Assembly: GCA_002049455.2 (NCBI GenBank)
Contig: KV918894.1
Span: forward strand, 124,001-188,000
Length of the DNA: 64,000 nucleotides
Source of the DNA: Porphyra umbilicalis
Taxonomy: Eukaryota; Rhodophyta; Bangiophyceae; Bangiales; Bangiaceae
Direction of reading: 5' to 3'
Of this stretch, positions 1 to 55,705 are shown one piece after another; position 1 is the first letter of the stretch; every line of letters begins with the position of its first letter. The notes under the pieces are model-generated. The model had not been told where the DNA came from. It was given only the letters and a program-made list of their open reading frames with translations, and made no database searches. Both the position numbers and the translations under genes were made by a program.

Positions 1-3000
1 TAAGGTCGTCGACGTACACGAGGATGAAAGTGCACCCGTGCACGGGGTGGTGCCTCTCATAGAGGCACGGGTCCACCTTGGACCGGACCGCTCCCATCTC
101 TTTAAGCTCTTTGTCGAGCTTGATGCCCCACAGCCGCCCAGCCTGCTTTGTCTCGTAGAGCGCCAGGTTAAGCCGACACATCTCCTCCAGCCCCTCCGGT
201 TCGACACCGTCGGGGAAATTGATGTACATCTCCTTGTACATCTTGGCGTTGAGGAGGGCTGTCATGACGTCGACATGGTGAATCTCCCAGCCCATGGATG
301 CCGACACAGCGAAGAGAGCACGTGTCGTGGCCGCGTTGGGTACCGGAGCCCACGTCTCGTCAAAGTCTTGTCCGGGCACCTGGTTAAACCCTTGGGCCAC
401 GAGACGAGCCTTGTAGCGCATGAGCTTGCCCTCCGCGTCGTGCTTGATGTCGAACAAGAATCGCGTCTTGATGGCCTTGTGATTCTTGTTGTTCCCCTTG
501 GTCTTGGACCAGGTGCCAAAGGTGTTTGTGTGCCGCCACCTCCTCCTGAATGGCCTGCTTTCACAGCGGCCAGTCAGGACGAGCGCGCGCCTCCTTCTCG
601 TTTGCAGGCGGCTTTTGCAAGTCCCAGCCCGCCTCAGCCGCGGAAGCGTTTCAGCTTGCCAGGTATGCCTTGGGTTCCTTCTCCCACAATGATACCTTGG
701 GAGCTGGCTTGCGCTGCGAGCGACGAGGCCTCGGTGTGACGCTGTCACTGGCCGCAGGTGCTTGAGCAGCTGCGGGTGTCGAGCCACCGACGCTATCCTC
801 GTCCTCAGCGCGGCTATCGCCAGCAAAGAAAGGAGAACCGACTTCGTTGTCGCTGTCAGAGGTGTCGTCGGGGGAGTACTCGTCCTCTCGCCCGCCTTCT
901 GCGCCGAGCATGTCCATTGCCCCTTCCGTGGCGCAATCCTTGTCGCCTTCATATTCCGCAGTCAGCCGGGGACCAGCGCTTGACCCGACTGCTGACGTCT
1001 CGCCCTTCGCCCGGTTTTCCTTCATCAGCACGTCCCGACGCTCGAAGACTTCGTTTGTCTCGTCCTCGAGGATGCGGTAGGCCTTGCCACCCACAGTGTA
1101 GCCGACAAAGCGGCCGACGTCGGTCCTTGGCTCCAGCTTGCGCTGCTGCTTCTTCGGCTTCAGCGCCCACGCCGTACTCCCCCAAACGCGGAATCCCGCG
1201 ACGTTGGGGCGTCGACCCGTCAGCGCCTCGAGCGGCGTCACATCGAGCCCCGCCTTAGGAGGTCGGTTGAGCACATGGACAACGGAGGCCAACGCCTCGG
1301 CCCACAGCTCTTCCTCCGCGCAGGCGACAAGCAGGGCAGCACGCACGCGCTCTATCAGCGTGCGGTTCACCCGCTCCGCCTTGCCGTTTTGTTGCGACTT
1401 GTACGGCGCCGTCATCTCAAACGTGATGCCCTTATCCTCGTACCAGGCTCTAAGATCGTTCGTGACGTACTCCTTTGCACCGTTGTGACGGACAAGCTTC
1501 ACTTTCACGCCCGTAAGCGTCTCAAGCTGCTTGATGCGCGTCTTGAGCACCTCCGGCGCCATCCCGTTTGTCTTGATAGGCGTAGCTGTGATGAATCCCG
1601 TTGAGTCCTCCAGCGCCGACATAAAGCAGAGGGAGCCACCGAGCGACTCAGTGAGTGGGCCACCAATGTCGGTGTGCACCAGTTCGCACTTGGTTGTCGC
1701 TGTCGACGAGTGGGGGCTGGGCGACTGAACCATCTTGCCGTCCACACACGGCACACACACCGTGCCAATGACGCGCTTGGCGTCTGCCACTGAAGCCGGC
1801 ATGCCGTCGACCGATATGGCCGCCCGCTTAAGGTTCTCCAACCCCAAGTGGTTGAACCGACGATGCCACAGCTTCGCCTCCCCAGCGATGCGCGTCGATG
1901 CCGCGCACGCCGAAGCCTTGACCGGCGAGATCTTGAGCAATAACTGCTCCAGGTCGTTGACCTTGCAGACAACGGACGCCTTGTCGAGCACTCCGCTCGA
2001 ATGAACAGCATCCCCGTCGCTGAGGATGTAACAGGCGTTTCCGACAAACACTACCGCACCACGATTGCGGTCAACCGCTCGAACCGAGAGCAGGTTGCTG
2101 GTCAGGTCCGGCAAGAGCATGGCCTCCCCGAGCACCATGGGCGTCTTCGTTTTGCACTTGCAAACGTCTATGGAGACGTGGCCGTGCCCCTTGATGGACA
2201 CCTTGTCGCCGTTGGCCAATGTGACCTCGGCCCCGCTTCCCGCCGTCCGGACGGTGAAGCCCTTATCCCCGGCGGTAACGTGGTTGGTTGCGCCAGAGTC
2301 GAGCACCCAAGTTGATGAACACAGGCAGCTCAAGCGAGCCTTGCTGCTCCCGGCATTGCCGGTGGAAGCAGTGTAGGCCAGAGCGGCACCCGCGTGGGGC
2401 CCGCCGCCGTGGCCGCCTTCACGACCACCACCGCCGGGCTTGCCTTTGCCCTCGGCCTCGTCCGCCTTCTTCTTGTAGCAGTCGCGTGGCCTGTGTCCCT
2501 TCTTGTTGCAGTAGAAGCACACGACCGACTTCTTGTCAAACGGCTTCTTAGGCGCCGCTGCCGCAAAGGCTTGTGACTTGACACTGCCAGAAGGCTTGGA
2601 AGCGCCGACAGAAATGCTCCGCTGCTCGACTTGGAGCAGGTGAGCCGTCACGTCCGACAGGACGAGCTTGGTGTCCTTGTTCTCCAAGACCGTCCTGAGC
2701 ATCCCGTACTCTGCCGGGAGCCCTGCCAGGACACGCAGCGCAAGCGTGTTGTCGTCCACCGGGTTTCCGAGCATGGCAAGCTCGTCCCGGAGCATCTTGG
2801 CGCGCGACGCAAACTTGATGATGTTTTCGTCGTCGCCTTTCTTCAGGCTGCTCAGCTCGTCCATGGGCCGCAGCAGCTGCGCGTTGTCACGTGCCTCGAA
2901 CATGACCTTGAGCGCGTCCCACGCCTCTTTGGCCGTGTCCACCGACGTGACCGTATTGAGGTGCACGGGCTTGACCGACATCTAGATGGTCGCCTGCGCC

Positions 3001-10269: not shown

Positions 10270-13200
10270 TGTTGAGGCAGCCCCCCAAGCCCGCGCAGGT
10301 AAGTCGGAGTTACCGCGGACTGCCTGGCTAATTCCAGGAGTATTGATGCGGTCATCGGCTTGTTTTGCTGTGCCATTGTCATGCATTGCTGTATGTGTGT
10401 GATGTAATTACTTGTACTTGTGTATTGAGGGCAGCTCTTTTTGGAGCTGAGCTCGGGGAGATTCTCGTGGGGTCATCGAGGGGCGTCGCGATTTGTGGGG
10501 TGGTGAGAGCATGTACCCTCCGAGGGAGGGAGCACTGCGCTGGCGGGGGAGTGCGCCGGCAGAACGTGGCGAGAGAGGCACACGGAGGTTTTAAGAGCAT
10601 ACTGGCCTCGCGCCTCAGACCGCTCTCGAGTAAATCAACGCATCCACCCAACTACCGCTCATTTCAGAAGTTATGGGCCCAGCTGTCGCTGGTGGTAACC
10701 GTCGTTTTCCATGCTGTCGCTGGTGAGACGACGTCGCTGGGATCGCGGTGTGTTCCGGCGTCGGGCTGGCGTGTGCCGCTCCCTTCGTCGTTAGTGCGGC
10801 GCTCTGCGGCGCCGAGGTCGTTAACATGGCAGACCACGGCCGTTATGGCGGCCCGCGGTTTGCGCAGCTGGATGACGACTACAAGGTGCGGGCAGCGTAC
10901 ACGCGTGCGCAGCTCAAGAAGGAGAAGCTCTGGGCGGCGGTCGTGACGGACCGACCGGCATCTTCGACCGACGAAAAGAAGTCCGACCCGGTGGTCGACG
11001 CGTAGGATGCCATAAACGAGGCGGCGCAGGCGACCATCTAGATGTCGGTCAAGCCCGTGCACCTCAATACGGTCACGTCGGTGGACACGGCCAAAGAGGC
11101 GTGGGACGCGCTCAAGGTCATGTTCGAGGCACGTGACAACGCGCAGCTGCTGCGGCCCATGGACGAGCTGAGCAGCCTGAAGAAAGGCGACGACGAAAAC
11201 ATCATCAAGTTTGCGTCGCGCGCCAAGATGCTCCGGGACGAGCTTGCCATGCTCGGAAACCCGGTGGACGACAACACGCTTGCGCTGCGTGTCCTGGCAG
11301 GGCTCCCGGCAGAGTACGGGATGCTCAGGACGGTCTTGGAGAACAAGGACACCAAGCTCGTCCTGTCGGACGTGACGGCTCACCTGCTCCAAGTCGAGCA
11401 GCGGAGCATTTCTGTCGGCGCTTCCAAGCCTTCTGGCAGTGTCAAGTCACAAGCCTTTGCGGCAGCGGCGCCTAAGAAGCCGTTTGACAAGAAGTCGGTC
11501 GTGTGCTTCTACTGCAACAAGAAGGGACACAGGCCACGCGACTGCTACAAGAAGAAGGCGGACGAGGCCGAGGGCAAAGGCAAGCCCGGCGGTGGTGGTC
11601 GTGAAGGCGGCCACGGCGGCGGGCCCCACGCGGGTGCCGCTCTGGCCTACACTGCTTCCACCGGCAATGCCGGGAGCAGCAAGGCTCGCTTGAGCTGCCT
11701 GTGTTCATCAACTTGGGTGCTCGACTCTGGCGCAACCAACCACGTTACCGCCGGGGATAAGGGCTTCACCGTCCGGACGGCGGGAAGCGGGGCCGAGGTC
11801 ACATTGGCCAACGGCGACAAGGTGTCCATCAAGGGGCACGGCCACGTCTCCATAGACGTTTGCAAGTGCAAAACGAAGACGCCCATGGTGCTCGGGGAGG
11901 CCATGCTCTTGCCGGACCTGACCAGCAACCTGCTCTCGGTTCGAGCGGTTGACCGCAATCGTGGTGCGGTAGTGTTTGTCGGAAACGCCTGTTACATCCT
12001 CAGCGACGGGGATGCTGTTCATTCGAGCGGAGTGCTCGACAAGGCGTCCGTTGTCTGCAAGGTCAACGACCTGGAGCAGTTATTGCTCAAGATCTCGCCG
12101 GTCAAGGCTTCGGCGTGCGCGGCATCGACGCGCATCGCTGGGGAGGCGAAGCTGTGGCATCGTCGGTTCAACCACTTGGGGTTGGAGAACCTTAAGCGGG
12201 CGGCCATATCGGTCGACGGCATGCCGGCTTCAGTGGCAGACGCCAAGCGCGTCATTGGCACTATGTGTGTGCCGTGCGTGGACGGCAAGATGGTTCAGTC
12301 GCCCAGCCCCCACTCGTCGACAGCGACAACCAAGTGCGAACTGGTGCACACCGACATTGGTGGCCCACTCACTGAGTCGCTCGGTGGCTCCCTCTGCTTT
12401 ATGTCGGCGCTGGAGGACTCAACGGGATTCATCACAGCTACGCCTATCAAGACAAACGGGATGGCGCCGGAGGTGCTCAAGACACGCATAAAGCAGCTTG
12501 AGACGCTTACGGGCGTGAAAGTGAAGCTTGTCCGTCACAACGGTGCAAAGGAGTACGTCACGAACGATCTTAGAGCCTGGTACGAGGATAAGGGCATCAC
12601 GTTTGAGATGACGGCGCCGTACAAGTCGCAGCAAAACGGCAAGGCGGAGCGGGTGAACCGCACGCTGATGGAGCGCGTGCGTGCCGCCCTGCTTGTCGCC
12701 TGCGCGGAGGAAGAGCTGTGGGCCGAGGCGTTGGCCTCCGTTGTCCATGTGCTCAACCGACCTCCTAAGGCGGGGCTCGATGTGACGCCGCTCGAGGCGC
12801 TGACGGGTCGACGCCCCAACGTCGCGGGATTCCGCGTTTGGGGGAGTACGGCGTGGGCGCTGAAGCCGAAGAAGCAGCAGCGCAAGCTGGAGCCAAGGAC
12901 CGACGTCGGCCGCTTTGTCGGCTACACTGTGGGTGGCAAGGCCTACCGCATCCTCGAGGACGAGACAAACCAAGTCTTCGAGCGTCGGGACGTGCTGATG
13001 AAGGAAAACCGGGCGAAGGGCGAGACGTCAGCAGTCGGGTCAAGCGCTGGTCCCCGGCTGACTGCGGAATATGAAGGCGACCAGGATTGCGCCACGGAAG
13101 GGGCAATGGACATGCTCGGCGCAGAAGGCGGGCGAGAGGACGAGTACTCCCCCGACGACACCTCTGACAGCGACAACGAAGTCGGTTCTCCTTTCTTTGC

Positions 13201-13766
13201 TGGCGATAGCCGCGCTGAGGACGAGGATAGCGTCGGTGGCTCGACACCCGCAGCTGCTCAAGCACCTGCGGCCAGTGACAGCGTCACACCGAGGCCTCGT
13301 CGCTCGCAGCGCAAGCCAGCTCCCAAGGTATCATTGTGGGAGAAGGAACCCAAGGCATACCTGGCAAGCTGAAACGCTTCCGCGGCTGAGGCGGGCTGGG
13401 ACTTGCAAAAGCCGCCTGCAAACGAGAAGGAGGCGCGCGCTCGTCCTGACTGGCCGCTGTGAAAGCAGGCCATTCAGGAGGAGGTGGCGGCACACAAACA
13501 CCTTTGGCACCTGGTCCAAGACCAAGGGGAACAACAAGAATCACAAGGCCATCAAGACGCGATTCTTGTTCGACATCAAGCACGACGCGGAGGGCAAGCT
13601 CATGCGCTACAAGGCTCGTCTCGTGGCCCAAGGGTTTAACCAGGTGCCCGGACAAGACTTTGACGAGACGTGGGCTCCGGTACCCAACGCGGCCACGACA
13701 CGTGCTCTCTTCGCTGTGTCGGCATCCATGGGCTGGGAGATTCACCATGTCGACGTCATGACAGCC
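9761..13766 (+). repeat. Right arm of the 4-kb inverted repeat
   Basis: This mirrors 257-4262. It carries the Gypsy integrase start (9761-10269) and the 5' part of a Copia fossil from its LTR into RT. Beyond about 13766 the two sides diverge abruptly, which suggests the Copia element on this side is a mosaic of two copies. Confidence 0.93.
10270..10666 (+). repeat. 5' LTR of the right Copia copy
   Basis: This 397-bp LTR starts TGTTGAGG and ends TTTCA. It is followed after a few bases by the ATGGGCCCAGC leader motif. It begins directly after the Gypsy integrase block and mirrors 3357-3753. Confidence 0.78.
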
Positions 13767-27912: not shown

Positions 27913-28887
27913 ATGCGGCACGGGGCGCCGGGTGGGCATCGCCCGCCCCCCGGCTTTGGTGGTGCCCCAGAGGGCGGGCGACCCCGGCCTTTTAAGCGGC
28001 ATCACTCCCCTCTCGGTCGCGGCCGCCGACATGGCGAGCGCGACGACTTTGAGCAGCAACGGCGGAACGTGCGCTACCGCGGCGATTGGGACGACCGCGG
28101 TGCTGGCGGCGGCCCTCCTGGCCCTGTGCGTGCGGGTCCGCGTGGCGGTGGCGACAACGACGGCTGGCGACGACCGAGCCCCCCTCGGCCGCCCTTGGGC
28201 GCCCCTCCCCGGCCGACAAGGGGCCCGCCATTCTCGCCCAACCACTTTGGTGGGAGCGCTCGGCGCCCGCCGGCTGGTGGACCTCCCGGCCCGCCGCGGC
28301 CTCCGACGCCGGGTCCTCCCCCAAGCCCGCCAAGAGGTCCGCCCCATTTCAGGGGCGGCCGGGACAACTACCGCCCGCGCAGCCCGCCGCGCCAGCTGTG
28401 GGTCCCACCGCCTGGCCCCCCACAGGGCGACTGGCGCTCGCCAAGGGGCGACGGCTGGGACCGCCCGTGCACCCTGCCCCGTCGTCCGGCGGGCCCCCCT
28501 CCGAGTTGGAGGTGGGCTCCCTCCTGCGAGGCGTGGGGCGACGACCAAGTCCCAACCTGGGAGGCTTCACGACCGGCGCCTCTTTGGCGTGTGCCTGATA
28601 CCCCCTCGCCCTGGCGGGTCGACCAGTACGGAGATCTGGGCGACACGCAAGAGCTGCAGTGGGTGCTGACCCAGACGCCGACACGGAGCACTTCCTCGCC
28701 GTGGACCTGGTGGCCCGCGCCGTCGCAGCCGTTGCGGCAGCCGACGTCGGCCGAGCCCCTGAGCCGTCCGGTGTACGTCTTGCAGGGGAACCATCCCTCT
28801 GTCGACCCGACCTACCAGCTCGTCCCTGTACCTCGGCGGCCGCCCCAGCTGTTCCCTGCCCACCCGCCGCCTCCCTACCGGCTGTGA
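27913..28887 (+). CDS. Pro/Gly/Arg-rich ORF overlapping the ORF1 frame
   Basis: The 324-codon frame is rich in Pro, Gly, Arg and Trp, with repeats such as RGPP and RSPRGDG and a Trp/Pro-rich C-terminus. It has no recognised domain and looks intrinsically disordered, like RNA- or DNA-binding low-complexity tails. It overlaps the upstream extension of the Myb frame (open from 28659) in the -1 relation. A similar Pro/Arg/Trp-rich frame precedes the Myb gene of the second Harbinger element, also in the -1 relation. It may be the true N-terminus of ORF1 reached by splicing or frameshifting, a separate protein, or a compositional artefact. Confidence 0.45.
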   Translation: MRHGAPGGHRPPPGFGGAPEGGRPRPFKRHHSPLGRGRRHGERDDFEQQRRNVRYRGDWDDRGAGGGPPGPVRAGPRGGGDNDGWRRPSPPRPPLGAPPRPTRGPPFSPNHFGGSARRPPAGGPPGPPRPPTPGPPPSPPRGPPHFRGGRDNYRPRSPPRQLWVPPPGPPQGDWRSPRGDGWDRPCTLPRRPAGPPPSWRWAPSCEAWGDDQVPTWEASRPAPLWRVPDTPSPWRVDQYGDLGDTQELQWVLTQTPTRSTSSPWTWWPAPSQPLRQPTSAEPLSRPVYVLQGNHPSVDPTYQLVPVPRRPPQLFPAHPPPPYRL

Positions 28888-28907
28888 CGTATTCGCTGCC
28901 CAAGAGG

Positions 28908-30110
28908 ATGGAATCTGCTCTGGGGTGGACGGACGCCGACCGTGTGCCCCTCTGTGAGGCGTACCTGGAGGTGACGAGCGACGCGGTGAAGGGGACTGCC
29001 CGGACCAAGGACAACCTATGGGCGACGGTGCACAAGGTGTGGGGTGAGAAAGTGCGGAGGAAGGGGCCGATGAGAGTGGAGCGCCTTCCAAGTGCGCTGG
29101 AGAAGCAGTTTAAGCGCATTCGGGCGGGTGTGAGCGCCTTCACGTCGCACTACCTGGCTGTTAAGGCCATGCCGACCACTGGCAACCCGACGGAGGAGGA
29201 CATTATCAGCGGCGCTGTGGCGCGCTATTGCTCGCTGGACATTTACGACGCGATCCGAGCGGACCGCAACCAGGACAAGGTCGACGACAAGACGCGCAAG
29301 CGCAAGGCCAAAGTCGCGCACTGCAAGTGGGTCGCGTGTTGGCGCGTCCTGCGGCAGAGCGACACGTTTAGCGGCGCCGCCAACGGCGGCGACGCCTCGG
29401 GCATGGACATTATGGGCGACACGTCGTCTGACGAGGAGGAGAGTGGCAGCGGCAGCGGTAGCGGCCGCAGCCGACGCAACGGCGGCTTTCAGGGTCGCCC
29501 TGTCGGCATCAAGGCGGCCAAGATGCAGCGCCAAGAGGACGTGCAGATGGACGCTCAGGTCAAGGCCAGCACTGAAGCTCTCCACAAGCTCACCGACGCG
29601 CAGCACGAGCGCACTGCCCTTTGCTTTTTTGATTCGCCGCTGATGCGGCACACCCCTGAGGCGGCTCGTTACCGTTTAGCCATTACGCAGAAGATGCTGG
29701 AGCGTGCGGGTGTGGCGAGCTCGTCTGCTATTGACGAGGGAGGGGGTGAGGGGACTGACGACTCTATCGGCGGTGTGGGCGACGGCGTCGCCGGTCTGGG
29801 TGTTGATAACTCGACGGGGACGGTGCGGGCGGCTGCCGGCCCTGCCGCCGGAGCGCGGGCGCCGCCGGGGCGAGGAGCGCTGGCGGCGCCTTTGGGTGCT
29901 GATGGTACATCAGCCTCTGCTCTGGCGGCGGCGGCGGCGGCCAAGGCTGCGCCGGCCCGCGTGCGTCAACACGCCAAGACTGGCGCTGGCCGTCAGTCGC
30001 TGGAGACCAAGCGGCAGGCAGCCGTGGCTCAGCTTGCGCGCAGCCCGAACACGACTCGCAACCTGGACGAGGACAGCGAGTCGCTGGACGACAGCGATGA
30101 TTCCGAGTAG
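28908..30110 (+). CDS. Harbinger ORF1: Myb/SANT-like accessory protein
   Basis: The 400-codon reading from ATG 28908 begins GWTDADRVPLCEAYLEV, a trihelix/Myb-SANT-like start. It continues with the block in which conserved aromatic and basic residues alternate (RLPSALEKQFKRIRAG), typical of the plant NAM-associated/Myb proteins encoded by PIF/Harbinger elements. Next come a Ser/Glu/Gly linker (residues about 165-190), a basic stretch, a conserved-looking helical segment, an Ala-rich region and an acidic tail (DEDSESLDDSDDSE). In this family the protein binds subterminal DNA and imports the transposase into the nucleus. The frame is open upstream to 28659, so the start is uncertain. It ends 59 bp before the T-tract motif at 30169. 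Confidence 0.75.
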   Translation: MESALGWTDADRVPLCEAYLEVTSDAVKGTARTKDNLWATVHKVWGEKVRRKGPMRVERLPSALEKQFKRIRAGVSAFTSHYLAVKAMPTTGNPTEEDIISGAVARYCSLDIYDAIRADRNQDKVDDKTRKRKAKVAHCKWVACWRVLRQSDTFSGAANGGDASGMDIMGDTSSDEEESGSGSGSGRSRRNGGFQGRPVGIKAAKMQRQEDVQMDAQVKASTEALHKLTDAQHERTALCFFDSPLMRHTPEAARYRLAITQKMLERAGVASSSAIDEGGGEGTDDSIGGVGDGVAGLGVDNSTGTVRAAAGPAAGARAPPGRGALAAPLGADGTSASALAAAAAAKAAPARVRQHAKTGAGRQSLETKRQAAVAQLARSPNTTRNLDEDSESLDDSDDSE

Positions 30111-31691: not shown

Positions 31692-33218
31692 CTAGAAAAC
31701 ATAGGGTGCCAGCAGCTCGCCGCGGTCGCTCCACACGTGCGCCGACAGGTCGGCACGGAGTTGCGCGTGTTCGGTGGGGTTGCGAGTCTCGCCCCAAGCA
31801 TCAAAGACAGCAACCATGCCGCCCGCGGGCGGCTGCCCCACAGCGTTCAATGCGGGGGGCGGGTTAGCAGCATCGACAGCGTCGGCCGGGCCGGCGGCGC
31901 CGCCGCCGCCAGGCGCAGGTCCCCCGGCGGCAGCAGCGCCACCATCCTCCGCCCCACCGTCGTTCCCATCATGACCCCCCGCGGCGGCAGCAGCCGCGCC
32001 TGCAGGACCCTCACCCTCACCACCCGCACCCCCTCCCTCGTTAGTCCCCCCTCTGCGGCGGCTCAAAAAGCCGTCTCGACGGCTCTCCACGCACATGTTG
32101 TGCAAAATACAGACCGCCTTGTACGTGGTGATCAGCTGCTTCACGGAGCGGTACCGTTCTGGGTGCAAGGCGATGTGAAACCGCTTTGTCAGAACGCCAA
32201 ACAGCCGCTCAACGTCCTTGCGAATGGCCTCCTGCAGCCGGTTGAACGTCTTGTCCTCGTCGGTCATAGGCATGGGGTGGGGGGACACTAGGAACGCGTA
32301 GCGAGGGTAGATGCCGTCGACTAGGTAGTAAGGTAGCGTGCGGGTGGTCCCATTCACGGTAAACGTCACGCCCCGCGGCGGCCACCGGCCTGCCGTGACG
32401 TCTAGGTAGAGAGGCGACTGGTTCAAAACGTTGATGTCGTTCAAACTGCCGGGAGCACCGACAAACAGGTGCCAAATCCACAGGTCCTCGTCGCATACGG
32501 CCTCGACGACAACGCCGCGCGAGCCCTTCCGGCTCTGGTACGCGCCCGCCATGCCCGTCGGGCACTGATGCCACTCCCAGTGGGTACAGTCCAGCGAGCC
32601 CATACAGCCGGGAAAGCCGCGCTCTGCGTTGCGCGCCATCATAGCCTTGAGCTCCGACTGGTTGGGACGGCGTAGGTAGGTCGATGCCCACCGCCGCACG
32701 ATGAATTCTAGGAGAAGCTTCGTCGCCTGCGCCACCGTCGAGCGAGAAAGGCGCACGTACTCGTCCGACCGGTCGGCCGCCTCGCCGTACGCGATGACGC
32801 GGAAGGCGGCCACGACCTTTTGCAGCGGGTGCGCCTGCAGGCGACCCGTCGCGTTGATGCGCTGCTGGAAGAACGGCTCGTCCTTGACGGCCAGGTAGAT
32901 GCGCCGAAACACATTGCGCGGCACACGGAAGCGCGTCTCGAAATCACGGTCGTCGTAGATCGGCGGCTCCGCGTTGACCCCGAAGTAGTCACGCTGGATG
33001 TTGAACAGGCCAGCGGCAAAGTCACGCCGCTTGTTGGGCCGACGCCCAGGAACAGAACCGCGGTAGTGGCGACGGCGGTGTCCGCGGGCGGCGCGCGACC
33101 GTCGTCGAATCAGCATCAGCAGGCCCATGTGGGATTGCACCGCAGCGCAAACGACGGCGCCATCTTCCTCGGCCAGGAGAGAGGCAGCGCTGGACAGCCC
33201 CGTCTCGGCAGCTTCCAT
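31692..33218 (-). CDS. PIF/Harbinger transposase (DDE_Tnp_4 type)
   Basis: The 508-codon frame from ATG 33218 contains the Harbinger nuclease. An N-terminal basic region (residues about 35-60) precedes the conserved block FRVPRNVFRRIYLAV. The first catalytic Asp lies in GSLDCTHWEW, the second in YYLVDGIYP, and the Glu in KDVERLFGVLTKRF, followed by CILHNMCVE. The C-terminus is Gly/Ala-rich and ends ELLAPYVF. The frame is open further upstream to 33455, but the chosen start gives a natural N-terminus. The enzyme would cut and paste the element in the nucleus together with ORF1. All three acidic residues are present, so the coding region looks intact. Confidence 0.92.
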   Translation of the reverse strand: MEAAETGLSSAASLLAEEDGAVVCAAVQSHMGLLMLIRRRSRAARGHRRRHYRGSVPGRRPNKRRDFAAGLFNIQRDYFGVNAEPPIYDDRDFETRFRVPRNVFRRIYLAVKDEPFFQQRINATGRLQAHPLQKVVAAFRVIAYGEAADRSDEYVRLSRSTVAQATKLLLEFIVRRWASTYLRRPNQSELKAMMARNAERGFPGCMGSLDCTHWEWHQCPTGMAGAYQSRKGSRGVVVEAVCDEDLWIWHLFVGAPGSLNDINVLNQSPLYLDVTAGRWPPRGVTFTVNGTTRTLPYYLVDGIYPRYAFLVSPHPMPMTDEDKTFNRLQEAIRKDVERLFGVLTKRFHIALHPERYRSVKQLITTYKAVCILHNMCVESRRDGFLSRRRGGTNEGGGAGGEGEGPAGAAAAAAGGHDGNDGGAEDGGAAAAGGPAPGGGGAAGPADAVDAANPPPALNAVGQPPAGGMVAVFDAWGETRNPTEHAQLRADLSAHVWSDRGELLAPYVF

Positions 33219-33539
33219 GCCAGCAGCGGAGGGGAGGGTCGCGGGCGAGCGCGGGCAAATGGTGGTGGAGCACGGAACACAAGGATAGGGGTCGTAAACG
33301 TGGTGGGGTAGCAAAGAAAGTGCGGCGGGTGCGCGGATCGTGCGTCTCAAGCCGACGACAGGGAAAGTGCGGGCGAAGCGGGCACGTCGTGGACGAGGAA
33401 CAGGGCAACAGAGTAGCGGGGGGCCGACGATGCAGGTAATGGCCGGACGCGTCACAACGATGGGCGCGACGTCGATGGGTCGGGTGTGTGCACGGTGCGG
33501 CAGCGCGGAATGAGGAGCGACGGACCGAGCCCCCCCCTC

Positions 33540-51960: not shown

Positions 51961-51963
51961 GTA

Positions 51964-52010
51964 TTGCTGACCTCCAAAAAATGGCGATTGCAGTGTGGTT
52001 GCAGTGTGCA
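51964..52010 (+). repeat. Left terminal inverted repeat of the Tc1-like element
   Basis: It starts TTGCTGACC after the TA, with two GGTTGCAG-type subterminal words (GCGATTGCAG and TGGTTGCAG). It pairs with 55655-55703. Confidence 0.85.
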
Positions 52011-52477
52011 GGCAAGTGTTTGAAAGATGGTAAACACTTTGTAGGGGCTTAAGTTTTTATCGAAAGAGACATAAGACGACTTGATTGATAGTCTAACTTG
52101 TTTGTTAACTACACTTTAAATCCAATCAATGTTGAAATTGGTGCCCAGGGCTGTTTAGCCGTGGGTGGCGCTTTCTGCAGCGGCCGTCTGTGCCCTCAAA
52201 CGGCTCCGTGTGGAGCACTCTGCAACCTCCTGGAGATTCCGTGAGATTTTTGCTCCTCCGAACCCGTCGCTCAGAGCATAGCATGCCGATAGCGGCGAAT
52301 CCCGCACATAAACATGGAGATCTGCAGATATCGGGAGATTTCTTGGGAGGCGATACCCACTTGGACCGCGGTTCTGGCTTGGCAGATGCGGGTCACCATC
52401 GCAGTGTCTTCCTGCTTCTGACATTTCCCGCCTGCCCCATCCCCTTCGACCCTTTATCCCCCCTCCGACTCCCCACG

Positions 52478-53578
52478 ATGACGATTCCTGACGAGCTTCG
52501 GCGGGCTGTTGTCTACCAAGTGGTTGAGCTCCACAAGCCCGTCGCCGTCGTGGCTGCTGAGCTACGCATCTCTCTGCGGTCTGCAGAGCGCTTTCTGCTG
52601 TACCAGCGCGTTCACGGGGACATCCACCCTCACATGAACACCCGCGGAGTGCACGAGGACGATGTGCGCAAGCACGCGGGCATCCGTGGTCCAGTATGCG
52701 CTGCCGTCGAGGCGTACCCGGAGCCCTTCCTCGACGAGGCCACCGTCTTCGTCAGAGAGGTGCAGGAGCTAATGGCGAACGACGTGCGGGTGTCCCCTGA
52801 GTCGGTGCGGCGCATCCTTGCAGCGAACGGCATCACGCGCAAGGTCATCGAGACCAACTTCCGGCAGCGAAATGAGGCCGCGCAGGCCGCATGGGTGGCC
52901 GCCCAGTGGGTCATCCCGTAGGAGTGTCGCGTGCACATTGACGAGGCGCACCGCCGCGGCCAGGCGGCCAACCGCAGGTGGGCGTGGGCGCTGCGTGGCG
53001 CCCGCGCCGAGGGCTACATCGACGCTTCCAAAGGCGTGGCGACAAGCTTTATTGTAGCCATAACGCACGGCGGGCTGGTGGATTGGAAGCTGACAAAGCC
53101 GCCTTCTGGGCAGTCGTCCCTTGACTTTTTACTGTTTTTGATTAACTCGGTGCTGCCCGCCATGAACGAGTACAACCCCGCGCTTCCGGGGGACCAGCAA
53201 CAGCCAAACTGCGTGCTCATCCTCGACAACGCCCGCGTGCATGACCACGCGGAGGCGGCGGTTTTGGAGGCGGCGGGAGTGATGGTGTGTTTTTTGCCTC
53301 CGTACAGTCCAGACTTCAACCCGGTGGAGGATGTCTTTTCCGTTGGGAGTAGCTGGCTGCGTCGCCAGGTAACATCCGAGCATTTCTCAGCGTGGCCGTT
53401 TTCGACACTCACCTCAATGCCTCTCCACATCACACCTGAAATGTGTGCTGGCTTCGTCAAAGCGGCGGAACGCCGATGCGCAACGTACGCGCCCGAGTCA
53501 AGTACCCGAGAAGGCATGCAACACAACAAAAGACGGGAGCAAAAGAAGAAAAACAGCTTCCTCATCCATCCCCCATAA
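52478..53578 (+). pseudogene. Tc1/mariner-like DDE transposase with one in-frame TAG
   Basis: The frame starts at ATG 52478 (MTIPDELRRAVVYQVVELH) with a helix-turn-helix (residues about 5-50, VAVVAAELRISLRSAERF) and a second helical DNA-binding region to about residue 145. A DDE_3-type catalytic domain follows: HIDEAH with the first Asp, LILDNARVH with the second, and PPYSPDFNPVEDVF with the Glu 33 residues later. TAG at 52919-52921 interrupts the frame just before the first Asp, and the protein sense continues in the same frame, as expected from one CAG to TAG change. All catalytic residues remain. It may be a recently inactivated copy, or may rely on read-through. Confidence 0.85.
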
Positions 53579-53890
53579 AACGACAACACGCGCGGGTCGG
53601 CGCGGCCCGTCGGCCGCGCGACCGCGACCGCCGCCAACGCGCCGACCTTGCCGCCGCCCGTCGCCGCCCGCCGCTCGCCGCGCGCGGGGCCGCCGCCAGC
53701 CTCGTGGTGGCGGCGGCGGCGGCGAACCACAGCGGCGTCGCCGCGCGGCTTGCCACCGTGGTGGCGGTGGGTTGGCGGTCGTTGGCCGGCGGCGACGGCG
53801 CACCCCGCGCCAAGAGCGTCCTGCCCCCCCCCCCCAAAATAACGACACGCGCGTGTTGGCGCGGCCCGTCGGCCGCGCGACCGCGATGCT
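53571..53890. repeat. Spaced direct repeat with a strong hairpin downstream of the transposase
   Basis: Two copies of about 55 bp (53571-53630 and 53829-53887) begin with a C run and AAAACGACA, and contain CGCGGCC CGTC GGCCGCG, a 7-bp perfect stem with a 4-base loop. The sequence between is GC-rich and low-complexity. It lies in the spacer between the convergent genes and could act in transcript end formation, which is inference. Confidence 0.6.
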
Positions 53891-54117
53891 GGCACGTGCG
53901 GTACTCCGCGTGTTGAACCGGCGGCGGCAGTCAACGACCGCCCGCGGATCTGGCAGCGCGGCTCCCGTCCGGGTGAGGCTCCCATTACACTTGCTGCGAG
54001 GTGACCGTTGAGGTCGATCGCTGCGGAAGTTTTTCCTTTTCGACCTGTGGGGCTGTCTTTTTGGCGAGTGCAAGATAAGTTATCAAACACGGGGAGTCAA
54101 GAACAAAGATGCATTGG

Positions 54118-55157
54118 TCACTCGACGTTGACAGTGCCCATGCGAAGCTCGCGCACGAACTGCTTGAGCACCGCAATAACAGGCTGAGCCTTGAGCCCCG
54201 ATTTTCGAGCGCACTGCACCAGATTCCCCTCCACCTCACCACCAGTCAAAGCTGCAGACGTCACACCCGCCCCGTTAAAAAATCGCTTGATGGCAAACAA
54301 AGTCAATGTGTCTCGTACCTGCGTCAGAATAACCGGGTCTGTCTGCTGGGTGAACTTGGTTGCGGCCGTACGAAGCTGCGCCCCGGTCCGTTTGAAGAAC
54401 GGGTTGGCAGACCCAAGAACCTCTGTCGTCGCGCCGCCGCCGTGCGACACGCCGACCTTCTTCAACACGCGACCCATCGCCGCGTTCAGCGCAGGCGTGT
54501 TCTTCCGCTGCGTCGACAGCGCCGCGTCGATGCGGGTGTAGGTTGACGCCCGGTCCCCTGCAAGCAAGCCGTCGTCAACGACACCGGGAGGGGGATGCAC
54601 GGACCCCGCAGCGGAAGAGTGCGTCGTGTCGGACACATAGGCACCAACAATGCGCGCCGCCACGAGCGACGCGCTCTCGTCCATTGCCGCAGCTGCATCC
54701 GCCTCCGCCGTCCTCGTGCTCGGAGAAGACGACGCGCCACCCAGCCCCGTCAGGTCCACCAAGTTTGTCTGCGCAGCGTGGGTCGCGAATTGCGTGCCGC
54801 TCGAGGCGCCGGCAGACTGAATCGCCCCAGCCGCCGCTTGGCAGACGAGCGCTGGCTCTTCTGCTGCGCGGATGTGAGCGGCAGCTCTTCCATGAGGACG
54901 CGCACGTGAGCTTGCAGCTCCTCGATGTCGAGCTTGTGGCACGGAAAAGAAGGGGGGCCCTTCTCGGGGATGGGTGGCAGGACGGAGAACTCAGCGTGGC
55001 CCTTTTTTTTACACTTGGCGCACTCAGTGCTGCACGTCGTGCAAATGGTCTTGTTGCAAACGCACGCGTACACGGGCTTCTTGATAATGGGGCATCGTCG
55101 GGCATCGTGATCAGTCGACGGGCATCCACGACACTTACGAGAAACTGAAGCTTCCAC
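54118..55157 (-). CDS. Zinc-knuckle accessory ORF of the Tc1-like element
   Basis: It starts at ATG 55157 (MEASVSRKCRGC). Residues 9-22 form a C-x2-C-x4-H-x4-C zinc knuckle (CRGCPSTDHDARRC), followed by a Cys-rich cluster (CVCNKTICTTCSTECAKCKKKGH) that could bind a second metal. A helical segment (LDIEELQAHVRVLMEEL) follows. The frame stays open to 54750; a second frame, -1 relative to it and open from 54942, continues to 54118 with a Ser/Ala-rich linker and a conserved-looking C-terminus (RDTLTLFAIKRFF, AVLKQFVRELRM). An intron, programmed shift or indel near 54.8-54.9 kb must join them if they form one protein. A nucleic-acid-binding partner of the transposase is a reasonable inference. Confidence 0.6.
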
Positions 55158-55654
55158 TGCTCAACAAAAAAGGAACAGGTTAGCCTCAGAACAATGACAC
55201 CGGTACAGGAACGAGAGAAAACACACGGCGCAAAAATGAGCGAGGACACCGACGTGTCGGAACGGCACATCGGGTCATACAGCCGCACAATGAGATACGG
55301 AAGGAGGATCCACTGACACATACCTTCGTGGGCCGGAGTCTCCATGACAGTGGGATGTGCTCGAGATGTGAAAAACTTGACGGCGTTGACGACGAGCACG
55401 CTTCGCGGTCGGGCGTCCACGATGCGTCGTGATCCGGGTCCTGGCATTGATAGACGACGGCGGATCGGTCTCGATCTCATCGTATCCGTGGGCGACCGCA
55501 GCTCGTGCGGTGCACGTCCAATGGGGCCCCATTGGAATTCGAACGTCGTCGGGACGGCAAACGAGGAGTTCTGTGTGAACGCCCGCACTTGAAGAGTGCG
55601 AAAAGCGTTGAAAGCTCTTAAACTTTCATTAGAGATCTTTGTGCATTTCACATA

Positions 55655-55703
55655 TGCTCTGCAACCGCTTACTCTGCAACCGCCATGTTTTGAAGGTCAG
55701 CAA
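55655..55703 (-). repeat. Right terminal inverted repeat of the Tc1-like element
   Basis: Reverse-complemented it begins TTGCTGACCTTCAAAACATG, then GCGGTTGCAGAG and, after a short gap, GCGGTTGCAGAG again. The duplicated GGTTGCAG words mirror those of the left end and are candidate transposase-binding sites. Confidence 0.85.
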
Positions 55704-55705
55704 TA

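Follow-up and report, generated by a model that had tools for sequence, protein, structure and literature searches.

A decayed two-gene IS630/Tc1/mariner-like transposon with a probable zinc-knuckle accessory gene in the red alga Porphyra umbilicalis

Features of the element

The stretch of Porphyra umbilicalis DNA analyzed here (the window; 64,000 nucleotides, positions 124,001 to 188,000 of contig KV918894.1, assembly GCA_002049455.2) includes a decayed transposon in which a DDE transposase gene and a second gene, ZK, coding for a predicted zinc-knuckle protein, converge tail to tail between inverted ends. Several copies of this element and four diverged elements have the same arrangement, bearing out the original prediction of a Tc1/mariner-like transposon that owns a convergent zinc-knuckle gene. 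The inverted ends with TA had been noted at 51964-55703, which is the same element minus the TA at each tip. The features are as follows, with C61, C7, and C2 denoting other copies in the same genome.

51962..55705, no strand: whole element from TA to TA, 3744 bp, a decayed copy; placed by its matching inverted ends and the corresponding ends in C61 and C7
51962..51996, + strand: left terminal inverted repeat, beginning TATTGCTGACCTCC; placed by arm pairing and kept in other copies
51986..52004, + strand: left subterminal doublet at offsets 24 and 35, with GATTGCAG as its first site in the window copy
52478..53497, + strand: IS630/Tc1-like DDE transposase, interrupted in the window copy; the C61 and C2 versions have 340 codons
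53570..53886, no strand: spacer between the gene tails; a GC-rich repeat occurs here twice, 259 bp apart, and more often in C61
54118..55156, - strand: ZK exon 2, with the CCHC knuckle, a Cys-rich motif, and a helical C-terminal part
55157..55323, - strand: predicted ZK intron, 167 nt, GT..AG
55324..55345, - strand: ZK exon 1 (METPAHE), predicted from sequence, 22 nt with ATG at 55345 and a GT donor
55659..55681, - strand: right subterminal doublet of GGTTGCAG at offsets 24 and 39
55671..55705, - strand: right terminal inverted repeat; placed by arm pairing and kept in other copies

The two 35-nt arms (51962-51996 and 55671-55705) are 89% complementary and the tips of the window element are TATTGCTGACC. 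The transposase opens with an ATG at 52478 on the + strand and is broken by an in-frame TAG at 52919-52921; the stop codon used by C2 and C61 is read through, and the frame extends to 53578. Pfam DDE_3 is matched both by the window fragment after its stop (E = 1.7e-16) and by the C61 protein (E = 2.2e-18), in which the catalytic residues are D155, D250, and E284. The last two of these are separated by 33 residues, one fewer than the 34 of Tc1. All six aligned transposases match the IS630 model NF033545 (NCBIfam), member 1 with an E value of 5.5e-25 and a score of 88.4 bits, under the cut-off of 100. For an N-terminal helix-turn-helix there are sub-cut-off matches only (HTH_33, HTH_23, and HTH_29), and Pfam reports no match of these transposases to Plant_tran or DDE_Tnp_4. 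Seventeen loci in viral_contigs match the transposase at 25 to 40% identity. Judged by DDE_3, the catalytic spacing, the TA tips, and the inverted ends, the element is of the IS630/Tc1/mariner-like kind.

The ZK frame is open in C61 and C7, and exon 2 of the window copy is one base short near 54826 relative to C61. The first motif of the protein is C-x2-C-x4-H-x4-C, followed by a Cys-rich stretch, and C6, C9, H14, C19, C38, C45, C48, H53, and C74 are invariant across nine aligned ZK proteins from different elements; the first four of these are the predicted CCHC ligands. The best PDB sequence match is to the zinc-knuckle protein AIR2, a weak one (E = 0.021) with an alignment that spans both Cys/His clusters. 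A first AlphaFold model was poor (pLDDT 44.7) and a second was better (pLDDT 69.2). ZK has no Pfam match to Myb/SANT-like, kinase, nuclease, methyltransferase, or Fanzor families, and the idea that it is a Fanzor/TnpB protein or a nuclease thus has no support from Pfam. Pattern-seeded scans of viral_contigs and genome_contigs returned no ZK from outside the source genome.

Copies of the window family and their ends

A DNA search of the 83.8-Mb assembly (665 contigs) with the window element gave at least 97 matches (40 of 274 candidates scored), among them the anticipated further copies with the same ends and genes. In the same assembly, ten of 11 phycobilisome matches lie on contig C665, whose allophycocyanin alpha chain has PDB chain 5tjf_A as its closest match, followed by 5y6p and 6kgx, all of them red-algal, in keeping with a red-algal host. 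We examined 16 loci of the window family by tblastn, each over a limited stretch. Both genes, some partial, are present in eight (C134, C61, C7, C1, C213, C25, C88, and C140), three of which (C61, C7, and C1) also have both ends. A single locus, C101, has ZK without a transposase in the stretch read; the other seven, which have a transposase without ZK, are weighed below.

TA is present at both tips of C134, C61, C7, C207, and C172, and of the diverged elements C127, C9, and C254 (filled sites); it lies just inside the reported arm in the diverged element C446, and one tip is TG in C1 and in C25. The subterminal doublets proposed in the original prediction as binding sites are present at both ends and are asymmetric. 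On the left, GGTTGCA is present at both sites in C61, C7, C1, C207, C172, and C25, and its offsets in C61, C1, C207, and C172 are 24 and 35 on the transposase side, against 24 and 39 on the ZK side. There are small departures: the C7 doublet is shifted by 2 nt at one end, some eighth bases in C1 deviate from GGTTGCAG, and the doublet sites are gone from the ZK end of C25. The asymmetric spacing fits recognition of the ends by some protein. The doublets are not found in the outer 120 nt of C127, C9, C446, or C254; they are family-specific, which rules them out as a general binding site. As they are not common to the other elements, they are candidate sites for the transposase as likely as for ZK.

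Short elements of 453 bp (C1 and C440) and 854 bp (C74) have the same ends and look like miniature inverted-repeat transposable elements. In these (L047, L048, and L049, of 453, 453, and 854 bp, respectively), the doublet is kept at one end (24/35, with the first site altered in L049) and the other end has a single GGTTGCA at offset 24. The 259-bp GC-rich spacer repeat (window 53570-53886; L032 3788-4510) varies in copy number among element copies. We also note that the terminal repeat of the window element is matched four times on C4, at C4:431010, 435235, 439460, and 443685, with intervals of exactly 4225 bp, which looks as though an element copy had become part of a tandem array.

Genome-wide pairing of ZK with the transposase

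Protein searches were scored for the best candidates only, and the counts given here are of loci listed. The ZK search gave at least 119 matches (117 of 140 candidates scored) and the transposase search at least 124 (119 of 385 candidates scored); merging of matches across gaps of less than 2 kb left 104 ZK loci and 113 transposase loci. A listed transposase lies within 15 kb of 74 of the 104 ZK loci, with 68 pairs convergent, three on the same strand, and three divergent. Seen from the transposase, the nearest ZK is convergent at 67 of the 88 loci with at least 39% identity, divergent at four, on the same strand at two, and absent at 15. None of the 25 transposase loci below 39% identity is convergent with ZK (24 have none, and one is on the same strand). 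Two further transposase queries listed four additional loci of the closer kind; among these added transposases, C116 and C1:660145 each adjoin a ZK locus and are convergent by position. The search tables contain 15 pairs in which a near full-length ZK match accompanies a transposase match, both free of stops (C61, C7, C127, C51:190599, C268, C160, C2:374174, C106:168085, C254, C29:251647, C23, C163:108923, C87, C353, and C446).

Diverged elements, selection, and co-inheritance

In four diverged elements, C127 (3549 bp), C9, C446, and C254 (8950 bp), the inverted ends start with TATTGC and the transposase and ZK frames converge; the C9 transposase has one stop. Their ZK proteins are 33 to 36% identical to that of C61; C254 shares 30 to 31% identity with C127, C9, and C446, and these three share 51 to 58% among themselves. 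Between its gene tails, the C254 element (L054, C254:80700-90500) also contains a pair of 2.27-kb inverted arms and tandem repeats of 484 bp.

The second gene was predicted to be under purifying selection, and its ratio of nonsynonymous to synonymous substitution rates (dN/dS) is indeed 0.16 to 0.22 in four pairs, with upper bootstrap limits of no more than 0.32. For C61-C7 the ratio is 0.22 (bootstrap, 0.15 to 0.32) at an unsaturated dS of 0.52, and the transposase ratio for the same pair is 0.19. The ratios for C9-C446 (0.20; 0.15 to 0.27), C254-C268 (0.16; 0.11 to 0.22), and C127-C64 (0.22; 0.13 to 0.31) are rough because dS exceeds 1.4 in these pairs. Some pairs with decayed copies have higher ZK values (0.43 for C61-C140 and 0.57 for C1-C88). 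The two genes also diverge together: among six elements, transposase and ZK distances correlate with an r of 0.88, a value that only the true labelling attains among 720 relabellings. In all but the closest pair of these six, divergence is faster in ZK than in the transposase.

A sister lineage with a second convergent gene

Transposases that are 31 to 37% identical to the C61 protein include that of C111 (L073), and C131 (L074) is also of this lineage. At C111 the frames are convergent and contain C..C, H..C, and CxxCx4H motifs. The protein of the C111 main exon, ZK2, has 73 matches in a protein search and no Pfam family above cut-off. ZK2 lies within 15 kb of 20 of the 38 listed sister-lineage transposases, convergent in all 20; the other 18 (e.g., C131:156832, C71:172406, C63:205538, and C253:99938) have no ZK2 within that distance. 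The right end of the ZK2-type element was placed from copies stopping near the same point, and the left end lies beyond the 800 bases read upstream, in which no inverted end was found.

Whether ZK and ZK2 are one family bears on how old the two-gene plan is. Homology between them is unsupported by hhalign (probability 0.9%, E = 0.06), with shallow profiles of six and two sequences, a result that favors independent acquisition of the two second genes and more than one origin of the plan. However, ZK and ZK2 are alike in position and orientation, their Cys/His clusters come in the same order (C..C..H..C, CxC, CxxCx4H; by eye), and the shallowness of the profiles itself tempers the hhalign result, such that we put independent acquisition at somewhat under an even chance. 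More speculatively, ZK and ZK2 could be one diverged family, with two-component Tc1/mariner-like transposition being the rule and ancestral in this red alga and the ancestor of both lineages having had an obligate convergent zinc-binding partner. We consider this doubtful, but if true there would be an IS630/Tc1/mariner branch whose transposase has come to depend, like that of Harbinger, on another protein that the element itself encodes.

Role of ZK and alternative explanations

The reading that we consider probable is of a decayed two-gene IS630/Tc1/mariner-like transposon in which ZK is an element-owned accessory, most likely a nucleic-acid-binding partner acting with the transposase. From what is known of the family, the DDE transposase very probably works by cut and paste, with cleavage at the TTGC ends and insertion at TA. 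ZK, with its presumptive CCHC zinc knuckle, second Cys/His cluster, and helical C-terminal half, would have been inherited alongside the transposase through the radiation of the lineage, under purifying selection, and may act, for example, on subterminal sequences or in the assembly of a paired-end complex. As modeled, the combination of knuckle, second cluster, and helical tail fits an adaptor for nucleic acid and another protein. Because the element keeps ZK, ZK does something for the element, and its retention in place and under selection in many related copies suggests that it aids the movement or survival of the element. The anatomy of the element, the co-occurrence and orientation of its genes, their joint divergence, and the selection on ZK are observed; that ZK binds nucleic acid, contacts the transposase, and is needed for transposition is what we infer.

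Several observations weigh against this reading. Seven of the 16 window-family loci (C2, C207, C172, C366, C369, and two on C376) have a transposase without ZK in the stretches read. Such copies were named in advance as grounds for refutation, and most of them are truncated or decayed: in C172, which is 2.1 kb long and has both ends, the transposase contains three stops, and in C207, also with both ends, it contains two. C2 is harder to dismiss, with an open transposase frame, no ZK, and no right end within the 9.2 kb read. There is no listed transposase within 15 kb of 30 of the 104 ZK loci, and the added transposases C45:208202 and C240 are not ZK partners by position. Copies share descent, and the pair counts are therefore not independent events. 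Across the diverged elements the ZK dN/dS is 0.24 to 0.65 with dS saturated, and these ratios (the C9-C446 value of 0.20 excepted) therefore tell little. Since C127, C9, C446, and C254 lack the doublets, a conserved contact between ZK and the doublets is unlikely. The profile searches of ZK that had been proposed do return zinc-knuckle families from Pfam, all below threshold (best E = 0.011), and Foldseek with the ZK model found no structural relative (best E = 0.58 in PDB and 0.25 among viral structures).

ZK could instead be element owned and yet stand outside DNA cutting, binding RNA or chromatin against host silencing or regulating transposase expression; this is less likely but has an appreciable share of our expectation. 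CCHC knuckles often bind single-stranded RNA, and AIR2, the weak PDB match, is an RNA-surveillance protein; the faster divergence of ZK relative to the transposase in the six-element comparison is also as expected of a protein in conflict. However, ZK is constrained, at the ratios given above, and neither whole-gene nor thirds-of-gene ratios reveal positive selection. We favor contact with the transposase or the ends over protection from silencing, and note that the data do not separate the two.

The seven window-family loci without ZK, together with 21 ZK loci that have no listed transposase and lie outside the examined set, might be taken to mean that ZK is a zinc-knuckle gene of the host that came by accident to lie between the ends of a single transposon copy. 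This is very improbable, and is ruled out by the copies with both genes and by the family comparison, in which many copies, as well as four diverged elements, have the same layout. Moreover, when the genome was searched at the DNA level with the complete C254 element, seven of the 30 unpaired ZK loci (C178, C315:51181, C136, C158, C162:14437, C163:61322, and C116) fell within its right-hand part, along with the ZK locus of C217, whose nearest listed transposase is on the same strand; these are thus pieces of an element. Two more unpaired loci, both on C101, are members of the window family. At no locus did ZK prove to be a gene of the host, with 21 of the 30 unpaired loci outside the examination. 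Least probable of all is that the element is itself a PIF/Harbinger transposon, in which genes for a nuclease and a DNA-binding partner lie tail to tail. The convergent two-gene plan is shared, as the original prediction pointed out, but the matches of the transposase are to DDE_3 and the IS630 model rather than to Harbinger-type nuclease models, TA lies at the tips, and a Myb/SANT-like Pfam match to ZK was not found. Membership of PIF/Harbinger is ruled out by the presence of DDE_3 in place of a Harbinger-type nuclease, and the resemblance is one of analogy only.

Relation to known systems and significance

Sleeping Beauty and Mos1 are the textbook one-protein systems of Tc1/mariner, and to our knowledge bacterial IS630-family insertion sequences encode a transposase only. 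The window element's kind of transposase shares the NF033545 match with the bacterial elements, but the window element differs from them in having a second gene with a predicted intron. The statement in the original prediction that classical Tc1/mariner elements encode only the transposase needs qualifying, given that multi-gene elements (TBE, Tec, and Fanzor-bearing Mariner) are already in print. The TBE elements of Oxytricha are Tc1/mariner with three open reading frames (ORFs), one of them reversed (22 kD, with no function assigned to it there), with purifying selection reported on all ORFs and the zinc-finger ORF the least conserved (PMC4724952, PMC7325037). The reverse-orientation ORF, the zinc-finger ORF, and the purifying selection are likenesses to the window element; TBE differs in having three ORFs, in tips that resemble telomeres, and in the kinase domain that its zinc-finger ORF carries. 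By comparison, the window element has two genes, tips of TATTGCTGACC, and no Pfam kinase match.

The Tec elements of Euplotes are likewise multi-gene Tc1/mariner with an ORF in the complement, but have terminal inverted repeats of about 700 bp and a site-specific recombinase as second ORF (PMC7325037). Mariner elements of viruses and an oomycete combine their transposase with additional genes and have TA duplications (PMC3627910); the extras are Fanzor1, an endonuclease, or a methyltransferase, and ZK has no such Pfam match. Multi-gene Tc1/mariner elements are thus already known in ciliates, viruses, and an oomycete, and the element here is a variant with a zinc-knuckle partner. Among the papers listed in a literature search, with subscription papers and Repbase entries outside its scope, none dealt, judging by title, opening of the abstract, or passages of text, with a Tc1/mariner element of red algae that has a zinc-knuckle partner.

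Two tail-to-tail genes are reported for autonomous Harbingers of Ectocarpus (PMC12477816), with a transposase family other than that of the window element. Elsewhere in the window, a Harbinger-type nuclease ORF (31695-33455, - strand; Plant_tran, 1.5e-63) is convergent with an ORF at 28659-30107 (+ strand) that has a sub-cut-off NAM-associated match (E = 4.6e-4), and these are possibly a two-gene PIF/Harbinger-like pair. Near-identical ORFs in opposite orientation (by eye) are also present at 651-2981 (- strand) and 11042-13372 (+ strand), the first of which codes for a Copia-type polyprotein (Pfam).

For genome annotation, ZK genes could otherwise pass as orphan host genes. The elements also provide many natural pairs for matching partner, transposase, and ends. 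A radiation beyond ciliates and viruses with a selected second protein makes it testable whether such transposases come to need a partner.

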